Translations under genes and position numbers: made by a program | Notes under the pieces: generated by a model | Databases searched by the model: none | What the model was told of the DNA's origin: nothing | Seen by the model: only the letters and a program-made list of their open reading frames with translations | In this document: positions 18,087 through 27,221 of the stretch, one piece after another | Layout of the letters: each line of letters opens with the position of its first letter | Numbering within the stretch: the stretch's first letter is position 1 | Assembly: GCA_028681575.1 (NCBI GenBank) | Contig: JAQUHX010000007.1 | Location: 1 to 39,686 of the forward strand | DNA length: 39,686 bases | Source: Patescibacteria group bacterium | GTDB taxonomy: Bacteria > Patescibacteriota > Patescibacteriia > Patescibacteriales > UBA12465 | Reading direction: 5' to 3'

Positions 18087-18854
18087 ATGGGAAAAGTTCT
18101 TGCTGTTGTCAACCAAAAAGGAGGAGTGGGTAAAACTACTACCGCTGTTAACTTGGGGGCCTATTTGGCGGCGGCCGGTAAGCGGGTTCTGCTGGTGGAT
18201 TTAGATCCTCAGGCTAATGCTAGCTCCGGTTTAGGCTTAGATATTAGTAAATTAGAAGCCGGAATTTATGAAGCCTTAATTGGCGAGCAGCCAATTTTTC
18301 AAGTAATTAAAAGAAGCAAGCAAGATAATTTTTTAGTGGCTCCGGCAACAGTCTCTTTGGCTGGAGCGGGGATAGAGTTAGTGTCTTTGGACAATCGTGA
18401 ATTTCGTTTGCAGGAGATTCTTAATTCAGTTCGCTTAGAATATGATTATATTATTATTGATGGCCCACCCTCTTTAGGTTTGCTAACAATTAATAGTTTG
18501 GTGGCCGCTGATGAGATCTTAATTCCAATTCAAAGCGAGTATTATGCTTTAGAAGGCTTAGGTCAATTACTCCAGACGATTAATTTAATACAAGAAAATC
18601 TTAAGCCGGAGTTAAAAATTATGGGCGCGGTTGTGACAATGTTTGATCGTCGCAATAAATTATCAGCTTTAGTTTTAGAAGATTTAAAGAAAAATTTCCC
18701 GGGTCGAATTTTTGAAACAATTATTCCTCGCAGTGTTCGTTTAGCGGAAGCTCCTAGTTTTGGGCGTAGTATCTTGCAGTATGAACCTCGTGGTCGCGGA
18801 GGGCAGGCTTATCAAGATTTGGCGGCAGAAGTTATTTCTTTAGAGACTAAATAA
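18087..18854 (+). CDS. parA: Chromosome partition ATPase ParA (Soj)
   Basis: Deviant-Walker ATPase that binds nucleoid DNA and segregates ParB-parS complexes. 255 residues. Walker A KGGVGKTT at 11-18 has both lysines; VDLDPQANAS is the A' motif; Walker B is YDYIIIDGPPSLG. SEYYALEGLGQL and MFDRRNKLS are typical of the Soj/chromosomal group, not plasmid ParA with an N-terminal HTH. It is followed 12 bases later by parB. I found no obvious parS palindrome (TGTTTCACGTGAAACA-like) in the window by eye. Confidence 0.97.
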   Translation: MGKVLAVVNQKGGVGKTTTAVNLGAYLAAAGKRVLLVDLDPQANASSGLGLDISKLEAGIYEALIGEQPIFQVIKRSKQDNFLVAPATVSLAGAGIELVSLDNREFRLQEILNSVRLEYDYIIIDGPPSLGLLTINSLVAADEILIPIQSEYYALEGLGQLLQTINLIQENLKPELKIMGAVVTMFDRRNKLSALVLEDLKKNFPGRIFETIIPRSVRLAEAPSFGRSILQYEPRGRGGQAYQDLAAEVISLETK

Positions 18855-18866
18855 TTTAGACAGTAT

Positions 18867-19745
18867 ATGCCAAGTAATTTAGGACGGGGTTTAGAATCTT
18901 TAATCCCCAAAAAAACAACGCAACATTTACCAGCTAGTGCTTTAAGTGAAGCAGGTGCGCCTCTTTTGGCGGCTGACGGTGAGCGTGTTTTAGAGTTAGA
19001 CCCGAAGTTAATTTCTATTAATCCTTGGCAGCCCCGTCAAGAATTTGCCCCAGGGGCTTTAAATGATTTAATGGATTCTATTAAGGCGCATGGTATTATT
19101 CAGCCTTTAATTGTTACTAAAAAGGGTCGGGCTTATGAGTTGATTGCTGGTGAACGGCGTTTGCGGAGTGCGAAAAATCTTGGCTTAAAAACTGTACCGG
19201 CATTGATTCGGGAGGCTGATGCCCAAAAGAAATTAGAAATAGCTTTGATTGAAAATTTACAACGAGAAAATCTTAATCCTGTAGAAACTTCTTGGGCCTA
19301 CGATAAGTTAATGACTGAATTTAATCTATCTCAAGAAGCGGTCGCTAAAAGGGTGGGTAAGGCTCGTTCAACCGTGGCTAATTCTTTACGTCTTCTAAGT
19401 TTGCCAGAAGAAATCAAGACAGCTTTAGCCAAGCGTCTTTTAAGTGAGGCTCACGCTAAATATTTACTAGGCTTAAATAGCGAGGCTCAGCAGCTGAATG
19501 TCTTTCGTAAAATTTTACGTCAAAACTTAACAGTCGCTGATACTAATCGTCTAATTCGTCGCCTCGGTGGAACAAAAGAAGCCCGTGTCAAAGATAATAC
19601 GCTTTTAGATAAAGAGCATCGCCTAGCTAAAGCTTTAGGGACTAGGGTTACGATTGAGCGAAAATTGAGTGGCGGTCGGATAATTATTGATTTTTATAGC
19701 GACGAAGAGTTGGGCGAGCTGACTAAACGCTTAATCAAAGAATAA
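18867..19745 (+). CDS. parB: Chromosome partition protein ParB (Spo0J)
   Basis: CTP-dependent DNA clamp that loads at parS. 292 residues. MPSNLGRGLESLIPKK is the ParA-stimulating N-terminus. The ParB/Srx domain has INPWQPRQ (box I), GIIQPLIV and AGERRLRSAK (the GERRxR CTP-binding motif); ENLQRENLNPVETSWAY follows. The HTH is at about 150-170 (LSQEAVAKRVGKARSTVANS). The C-terminal dimer domain ends GGRIIIDFYSDEELGEL. Second gene of the parAB operon, closed by a terminator before dnaE. In many bacteria this pair lies near the origin, but that cannot be shown from this window. Confidence 0.97.
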   Translation: MPSNLGRGLESLIPKKTTQHLPASALSEAGAPLLAADGERVLELDPKLISINPWQPRQEFAPGALNDLMDSIKAHGIIQPLIVTKKGRAYELIAGERRLRSAKNLGLKTVPALIREADAQKKLEIALIENLQRENLNPVETSWAYDKLMTEFNLSQEAVAKRVGKARSTVANSLRLLSLPEEIKTALAKRLLSEAHAKYLLGLNSEAQQLNVFRKILRQNLTVADTNRLIRRLGGTKEARVKDNTLLDKEHRLAKALGTRVTIERKLSGGRIIIDFYSDEELGELTKRLIKE

Positions 19746-23592: not shown

Positions 23593-25227
23593 ATGCCTAA
23601 AGAAAGTTTAAGTGCTAAAAAAAAGGTTAACGCCAAGACTTCAAAAGCAACTGCAAAAAAAGCTCCTACTTCTAAAAAGACGCTTACTAAAAAGACTGCT
23701 GCTCCTAAAAAAAAGGCGCCAAAGAAAACGACTACTTCTAAAAAAACGGCTACTAAAAGAACGAATTTGACGAAGAAGAGTCCGACTAAAAAAACAAGCG
23801 TTAAAAAATCGCTTGAAAAAAAAGTTTCTAAGGTGAAGCCAGTTTTTGTTGATGTTATTTCTGACCAAGAGACAGAAGCAACATTTAGACGACCAGTTTA
23901 TCAACCTGACTATCAGGAGGAGAATGAGGAAGAAGAAGGTGTTGAAAATATTTATAATAAGCAAGCGGATATTCCGGATTTTGAGCTAACCGATAATGAA
24001 GTTTTTGATAAGCAGAAAAACTTTTTTTCCGAGCTTATTGAGGAAAGTGATGATTTTTCTTCAAATGAAGAGATGGCCGAGCAACCAATTTTAAGAAAGA
24101 AACCTTTAAAACTTTATCGTCGGCAAGCTTGGGTTTATTTGGCGGCAACACTAATTCTAATGCTAACTGTTTTTTATTTTTTTGCAGTTAAGCTAACAGT
24201 TACCATTCATCCTCGGGGAGAAGAGTTAATTAATGATGAGGTGAATTTTACCGTTACTTCTGCAACCGAAGTGGATTCCGATTATCCCTTGGTCCGTGGT
24301 GAAGCAAAAATAGTCGAGGAAGAAGCTGAGAAAGTTTATCAAGTTGAAAAGGGAAATGAGGTTGATGATTTAAGTGGCCGAGTCCGCGGCAGTGTTACTT
24401 TAATTAATAAGTTAGCCCGTAATCAACGTCTCGTGGCAACTACCCGATTACTAACAGCGGATGGGCGTCTTTATCGCCTTGATGAGGCGGTTAATATCCC
24501 CGCCGGCGGTCAGATTGAGACAAGTGTTTATGCTGATGAATTAGGGAGGGATAAACTATTAACTAGTTCGGAAAAATTAACTATTCCTGGCTTGTGGGAG
24601 GGTTTGCAAAATAGTGTTTACGCAGAAAGCAGTGGACCTTTTTCTTATCAGGCCGACATCAAGACTATTGTTACCGAAGAAGATTTAGAGAAAGCTGAGG
24701 CAGATATTCAGGCAGTTTTAGATGCTAAAGCTAAAAATGATTTTCGTCCAGCCGCCGGTCAAGCAACGACTTATAAAGAAGTTCCTGAGTCTTTTGTGGT
24801 TGAATTTAGTGTTAAGGCGGGTGATAATGCTTCAGAATTTACTGCCACTGCTAAAAAAGGTTATGTTTTAGCCCGTTTTTCTAAGGAGGATGCGATTAAT
24901 CTTGCTAAAAATCGTTTAGCGATGGTGATTCCTGATGACAAGCGTTTAACCGGGTTTAACCCAGATTCAATTGTTTTTACTTTAGAAAAATATCAAAGTA
25001 ATCCAGCTCAAGCGACAGTTACAGCTAATTTTAGTGGTCAGATGCTTGCAAACGGTGACAGTCTTTTTCTGGATTCTAATAAATTGGTCAGCTTGAAAGA
25101 AGCGCAAATAAGAGATCACCTTAGTCAGCTTCCTGAAATTGATAGTTATGAGCTTGATTTTTGGCCCTCTTTTATTAAAAGAGCGCCACACTTGCCAGAT
25201 CGAATTAAAATAAAAACTGCTGATTAA
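23593..25227 (+). CDS. Membrane protein with Lys-rich N-terminus and baseplate-J-like extracytoplasmic domain
   Basis: 544 residues. Residues 1-85 are a low-complexity Lys/Thr/Ala tract (repeats like KKTATKK, KKSPTKK) resembling histone H1 or bacterial HctB-type tails. Residues 95-165 are strongly acidic. One TM lies at ~178-198 (VYLAATLILMLTVFYFFAV). The outer part (~200-544) has a segment like the baseplate protein J domain: GSVTLINKLARNQRLV, LLTADGRLYRLDEAVNIPAGG and VYADELGRD. This domain is common in CPR membrane proteins of unknown role and does not imply a phage. The opposite charges of the two cytoplasmic segments could interact, or the Lys tail could touch nucleic acid (inference). 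The gene ends at a bidirectional terminator shared with fba. Confidence 0.7.
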   Translation: MPKESLSAKKKVNAKTSKATAKKAPTSKKTLTKKTAAPKKKAPKKTTTSKKTATKRTNLTKKSPTKKTSVKKSLEKKVSKVKPVFVDVISDQETEATFRRPVYQPDYQEENEEEEGVENIYNKQADIPDFELTDNEVFDKQKNFFSELIEESDDFSSNEEMAEQPILRKKPLKLYRRQAWVYLAATLILMLTVFYFFAVKLTVTIHPRGEELINDEVNFTVTSATEVDSDYPLVRGEAKIVEEEAEKVYQVEKGNEVDDLSGRVRGSVTLINKLARNQRLVATTRLLTADGRLYRLDEAVNIPAGGQIETSVYADELGRDKLLTSSEKLTIPGLWEGLQNSVYAESSGPFSYQADIKTIVTEEDLEKAEADIQAVLDAKAKNDFRPAAGQATTYKEVPESFVVEFSVKAGDNASEFTATAKKGYVLARFSKEDAINLAKNRLAMVIPDDKRLTGFNPDSIVFTLEKYQSNPAQATVTANFSGQMLANGDSLFLDSNKLVSLKEAQIRDHLSQLPEIDSYELDFWPSFIKRAPHLPDRIKIKTAD

Positions 25228-26330: not shown

Positions 26331-27221
26331 ATGAGTAAAGGGAAAAGAAAAATTTCTGATGATCAGATTCACGATTATGATGATCCAATTAATATGACCC
26401 CCAAAAATTTAAAATTAGGTTTTTGGGTTGCCCGCAATAAGCGCCGACTCTATCGTGCTTTGGTTATTTTTTTGGGGTTAATTGCTTTTGGGACTGTGGC
26501 TTATGCAGTTTATGGTGTAATTGAATACAATACGATTGGTCGAGAAAGGGAAAAGATTACCCTTTATTCTAGTGGCGGGGTTGATATCTCTGATTATCGG
26601 GAGCAAAATCGTCCGGAGGATTTAAGGATTAGCACTCCGCGATCATTGGCTGGTGGCAGTGAGACTGATTTAACTGTTAGAATTAGTAATCCTAATGAGA
26701 AGCAATATGCTTATTTTGATTTTTGTTTTATAAATTCTGAAAATGAAGCTTGTGGGAGTGATTTTATTTTGCCGCAAGATCAGAAAGATTTAGCTTTATT
26801 AAACTCAACTTTAGGAACCGGAGGTGAAATTCGCTTTGTAATCAAAAGAATTTTGTGGCAGAAATTAAAGGCTTATGAAGTCCCTGATTGGACTGTTTTT
26901 AAAGAACAGCGTCTTAATTTTGAGGTTGATGACGCGCAATTTTCTACTTATACCAACGAAGTTGCTTATTTAGAATTTTCTGTTAGTAATAATACGTCTT
27001 TTTCCTATTTTTCAGTTCCTTTTGATATCTTTATTCGCCAAGGTGATAAAGTAATGGCAATTAATCGTTATGTGGTTTATGATTTTTTAAGTCGAAGTAC
27101 GCGTTCAGTTCGACTTCTTTGGCCGGAAGGGGAAGCGCGTGGTGGCAATATTGAAATTATTCCAAATTTAAATATTCTCGACGATAGCATCTATAGACCG
27201 TATTCGGCCCCTGAAAATTGA
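26331..27221 (+). CDS. Single-pass membrane protein, unknown function
   Basis: 296 residues. A charged N-terminus (1-38, SKGKRKISDDQ start) is followed by one TM at ~41-63 and then ~230 residues outside the membrane. The outer part has beta-rich character with LTVRISNPNEKQYAYFDF resembling an immunoglobulin-like or DUF11-type strand pattern, and two Cys (DFCFIN, EACGSD) that may form a disulfide. No enzyme motif is seen. Its stop is 1 base before the rodA start, so it is the first gene of a rodA operon and may take part in envelope growth (inference from position). Confidence 0.65.
   Translation: MSKGKRKISDDQIHDYDDPINMTPKNLKLGFWVARNKRRLYRALVIFLGLIAFGTVAYAVYGVIEYNTIGREREKITLYSSGGVDISDYREQNRPEDLRISTPRSLAGGSETDLTVRISNPNEKQYAYFDFCFINSENEACGSDFILPQDQKDLALLNSTLGTGGEIRFVIKRILWQKLKAYEVPDWTVFKEQRLNFEVDDAQFSTYTNEVAYLEFSVSNNTSFSYFSVPFDIFIRQGDKVMAINRYVVYDFLSRSTRSVRLLWPEGEARGGNIEIIPNLNILDDSIYRPYSAPEN

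Follow-up and report, generated by a model that had tools for sequence, protein, structure and literature searches.

A membrane protein gene next to dnaE

The window is a 39,686-nucleotide stretch of a Patescibacteria group bacterium (GTDB lineage Bacteria; Patescibacteriota; Patescibacteriia; Patescibacteriales; UBA12465), namely positions 1 to 39,686 of contig JAQUHX010000007.1, assembly GCA_028681575.1, read on the forward strand. An open reading frame with an ATG start at 23593..25227 (+) encodes a bitopic membrane protein of 544 aa, and 101 of the 111 order genomes contain an orthologue. The gene adjoins dnaE, not division genes, and a parA-parB pair (18087-19745, +) stands directly upstream of dnaE. 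Farther along the window, a second single-TM protein, of 296 aa, is encoded at 26331-27221 (+), directly before rodA, and matches no Pfam or NCBIfam family above cut-off. Among the 68 order loci examined, 9 carry a member of its family, frequently arranged as DeoC-aldolase, 296-aa gene, rodA, L25.

The 544-aa protein begins with a basic tract (aa 1-84; 23593..23844, +) that is rich in Lys (36%), Thr (18%), and Ala (11%) and carries a net charge of +29, followed by an acidic stretch (aa 85-165; 23845..24087, +) with 32% Asp plus Glu and a net charge of −21. A basic patch (aa 166-182, net +6) lies between the acidic stretch and a single transmembrane helix at ~aa 180-199 (24130..24189, +), which was located by hydropathy and corresponds to helix 2-28 of the structural model, in which residue 1 is aa 171. 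The remaining 345 residues (aa 200-544; 24190..25224, +) form the outer region. Because of the positive-inside rule, the N terminus is placed inside; composition and the one N-in helix thus agree with the sequence-only reading, which had put a Lys-rich tract and then an acidic tract on the cytoplasmic side. At the Lys frequency of neighboring genes (6.7%), the probability of at least 30 Lys in 84 residues is ~1e-14, for a stretch that was picked post hoc. The same layout is seen in a same-genus relative, with 58% identity in the tail and 72% in the outer region. The inner tail is presumably disordered, and a search of the bacterium's own genome with the tail gave no other match at E ≤ 1.

That reading had also called the tail histone-like. 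The description fits the Lys/Ala/Thr-rich composition, which the tail shares with the histone H1-like HC2 family (PF07382), but the protein is not a member: it scores 19 bits against a curated Pfam cut-off of 40 bits, and histone homology was rejected.

A predicted baseplate-J-like barrel outside the membrane

Structure prediction, which had been proposed together with the sequence-only reading, was run with AF2 on the TM helix and outer part, using an alignment of 89 relatives. The resulting model has a mean pLDDT of 93.2, and the outer region is conserved across the order. Foldseek matched a barrel at ~aa 256-360 (24358..24672, +) to gp47-type phage baseplate proteins with a probability of ~1.0 and E values of 1e-6 to 1e-3, the matches including those of phages Mu, phi812, Pa193, and XM1 over a core of ~100 residues. 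The PHROG search pointed to the same kind of domain, with phrog_6 at aa 279-343 of the 544-aa protein (E 0.002-0.005) and phrog_1369 in 27 of the 89 relatives (best 1.3e-6), so that both methods bear out the baseplate-J-like outer domain suggested earlier. Pfam Baseplate_J (PF04865) gave no match for the whole protein at E ≤ 10 or for the outer part at E ≤ 0.1, and two relatives, L145 and L140, reached 16.7 and 16.1 bits, below the cut-off of 21.1. As modeled, the outer region contains a baseplate-J barrel fold that does not reach the curated Pfam score.

The C-terminal half of the outer region (24652..25224, +) is of mixed alpha/beta structure. Modeled alone, it has a pLDDT of 90.8, and Foldseek found no PDB match for it (best E 1.1). 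An FtsQ-type POTRA domain was considered for the outer region and rejected, with Pfam POTRA_1 weak in 5 of the 89 relatives and Foldseek matchless for the C-terminal half. No phage genes were seen near the window gene, and a phage origin was rejected given the lack of any tblastn match to the 544-aa protein in phage records together with the conserved housekeeping neighbors.

Distribution and gene neighborhood

The TM helix and outer part are present in the 101 order genomes mentioned above, nearly always in single copy, and across the phylum in 344 of the 380 genomes searched; by these counts, the outer part is a core protein of both order and phylum. The phylum genomes were assigned to Patescibacteria by their size (0.4-2 Mb) and gene content. 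The orthologue's frame is broken by a stop codon in two order genomes, L066 (TAG) and L071 (TAA). Although near-universal in the searched genomes of the phylum, the 544-aa protein has no curated family name. A general genome contig search with the full-length protein returned no relative, and a prior description of the protein was not found in the literature. A set of 106 CPR-enriched protein families, most of them poorly annotated, has been reported (PMC6744442).

Within the order, the gene usually lies 3′ of dnaE, often with thrS behind it, and parA/parB are near it in 11 of 37 informative loci. The argument from the dnaE and parAB neighbors for a nucleoid link, which had been called worth testing, is weak: dnaE is a conserved neighbor, with thrS usually on the other side, and parAB is absent near most loci.

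A basic tail kept within one order

Among the order's tails of at least 40 aa (n = 85), 84 are net positive over the first 60 aa. The median Lys content of those 60 residues is 23%, compared with 8% in 306 neighboring ORFs (99th percentile, 22%). Tail length within the order ranges from 12 to 253 aa. Five intact members have tails of only 12 to 26 aa, namely L061 and, from the basal family f20, L083, L085, L087, and L090; the short tails of L010, L018, L057, L073, and L079 are contig-edge cuts and were excluded from this count. Elsewhere in the class, most tails are 10 to 50 aa long; outside the class, the tail is replaced by a small folded domain. This folded cytoplasmic domain is present in 231 of the 380 phylum genomes; it is absent from the window's genome and was not found in the listed class members. 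A search for it with a GC-rich codon pattern found nothing. In a tree built by a quick method with SH-aLRT support only, the folded-domain and tail forms are set apart and the order forms one clade.

Because only the outer domain is kept outside the order, where N termini are unrelated, the basic tail is, on this comparison, a clade-specific addition, and the long Lys tail is likely to have originated in the order or close to its base. Whether relatives keep the tail had been raised with the sequence-only reading as a check on it, and relatives sharing just the outer domain, with unrelated N termini, had been named as counting against it; the outcome is divided, the basic tail being kept inside the order and the N termini being unrelated beyond it.

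These data bear on the possibility that the protein is a membrane-nucleoid tether, in which the Lys tract would bind DNA without sequence preference and pin the chromosome to the membrane, with the acidic stretch competing with DNA and tuning the binding. Charge-based binding would predict tails that stay basic despite sequence drift, as the long tails of the order do, and the parA/parB genes at some of its loci fit as well. There is also a precedent in mycobacterial Rv3852 (PMC8233713), a nucleoid protein that is anchored in the membrane and contains KAAK/PAAK repeats. Both proteins have a basic Lys-repeat tract and a single TM helix that keeps it at the membrane, but the helix of Rv3852 is C-terminal, and in the 544-aa protein 345 residues of outer region follow it. 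Against a tether stand the loci at which parAB is missing, the lack of histone H1/HC2 homology over cut-off, and the short tails of L061, family f20, and class relatives; the core role therefore needs no tail. We regard a nucleoid tether as unlikely.

Conserved motifs and a repeat in the tail

In 34 aligned tails of family f1, the GTDB-level family of the window's genome, the Lys tract aligns by composition only, and the best-conserved parts are three short segments. Motif 1 (aa 80-93, KVKPVFVDVISDQE; 23830..23871, +) has the family form KxKPVxIDVIxDD, a pattern present in 24 of the 34 tails. Motif 2 (aa 139-152, DKQKNFFSELIEES; 24007..24048, +), with the family form DxQKKFFsxLxxEIK, is recognizable in all 34, was seen in family f1 only, and is likely to be a short amphipathic helix. 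The juxtamembrane motif KKPLKLYRRQ (aa 169-178; 24097..24126, +) has the consensus.lYRr in family f1 and the general form xSxxLYRK, and forms such as INLYRK and ISIYRK occur throughout the order and class.

Inside the Lys tract lies a degenerate direct repeat of 33 bp × 3 (23666..23764, +; TRF score 100, 68% matches), which suggests that the tract has partly grown by repeat expansion. The tract could then be a low-complexity spacer enlarged at the DNA level, in which case function would lie in the outer domain and the short motifs alone. The repeat, the wide range of tail lengths, and a tract that can be aligned by composition only are all consistent with such a spacer. Neutral drift, however, should not keep the charge as steadily positive as it is in the long tails of the order, nor does the Lys content, which at its median exceeds the 99th percentile of neighboring ORFs, speak for it. 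A mere spacer is thus doubtful, if somewhat less so than the nucleoid tether.

Polybasic tails are also known to bind anionic membrane lipid or ribosomes and RNA. A role in membrane anchoring or cotranslational insertion, instead of partner docking, would fit this behavior and the strong positive charge beside the membrane. It leaves the conservation of motif 2 and of VDVIxD unexplained, and we consider it the least probable of the alternatives.

The folded-domain form and its FtsA-like neighbor

In 94 of 103 genomes, the gene for the folded-domain form comes immediately after an FtsA-like gene, with a median gap of 49 bp; this neighbor matches Pfam FtsA at up to 8.9e-18. Two of the folded-domain loci run on into ruvX-mltG-mreB-mreC-mreD-PBP2, the names being read by eye from translations. 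In L138, L141 to L145, and L149, a phylum-wide gene pair was seen, in which an FtsA-like ATPase that differs from canonical FtsA is paired with a bitopic baseplate-J-like protein whose cytoplasmic domain of ~84 residues is unnamed and has no PDB match by sequence. In L140 (852-3113, +), a fusion protein combines PilM, a TM helix, and a baseplate-J-like outer domain, and two pilin-like ORFs follow; the PilM match is 8.6e-49, in a single case that forms a long branch in the tree. The window's genome contains FtsA, PilM, and two MreB-like genes, while a dedicated FtsA-like gene was found neither there nor in the listed class members at E ≤ 1e-60.

A possible docking role for the tail

What was observed comprises the anatomy, the distribution, the conserved motifs, and the FtsA-like gene next to the related form. 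From this, we tentatively favor, with a little less than even confidence, a bitopic envelope protein whose tail docks a cytoplasmic partner, actin-fold or other, and whose Lys tract would serve as an electrostatic tether. The window gene would be the form in which the order carries a bitopic envelope protein nearly universal in Patescibacteria, with the baseplate-J-like barrel and the unmatched C-terminal domain on the outer side, where they probably form an oligomer. Its presumably disordered inner tail would present VDVIxD, DxQKKFFsxLxxEIK, and the juxtamembrane LYRR as docking motifs, and the cytoplasmic partner would most likely have an actin fold, as FtsA, PilM, and MreB do. Docking may tie the outer part to machinery for division, growth, or pili, and the Lys tract and acidic stretch may tether or tune the docking electrostatically at the membrane. 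Several points count against docking of this kind: neither the dedicated FtsA-like gene nor the folded domain was found in the window's genome or the listed class members, the gene lies beside dnaE, motif 2 was seen in family f1 only, and the PilM fusion occurs once. The sequence-only reading had the anatomy and topology right and missed the tail motifs and the actin-fold link of the wider family.

The tight pairing of the relatives with an FtsA-like ATPase offers a testable way into a core part of the apparatus by which the reduced cells of this phylum divide, grow, or make pili. A natural domain swap is provided by the window's order: a folded docking domain versus a disordered charged tail. 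It is tempting to assume a phylum-wide envelope module of Patescibacteria, in which actin-fold ATPases run a baseplate-J-like outer protein and, in one order, a long Lys-rich disordered tail replacing the folded docking domain ties the machine to both the nucleoid and a protein partner; as a whole, we hold this picture to be quite unlikely, although less so than lipid or ribosome binding.

Comparison with known systems

The outer barrel resembles phage baseplate J/gp47 proteins, but ~100 residues align only, and the 544-aa protein is membrane anchored and encoded by a chromosomal core gene. In PilN-PilM of type IV pili, a bitopic protein has an actin-fold partner, and one relative of the 544-aa protein, L140, is fused to PilM; the outer fold of the 544-aa protein matches baseplate J proteins and not PilN, and no pilus genes were seen beside its gene. 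In cell division, bitopic FtsN binds the IC domain of FtsA through its basic cytoplasmic tail, much as PilN binds PilM (PMC7613929). Like FtsN, the 544-aa protein is bitopic and N-in and has a basic cytoplasmic tail, and its folded-domain relatives have an FtsA-like gene as their neighbor; no sequence link to FtsN was found, and the outer part is baseplate-J-like.
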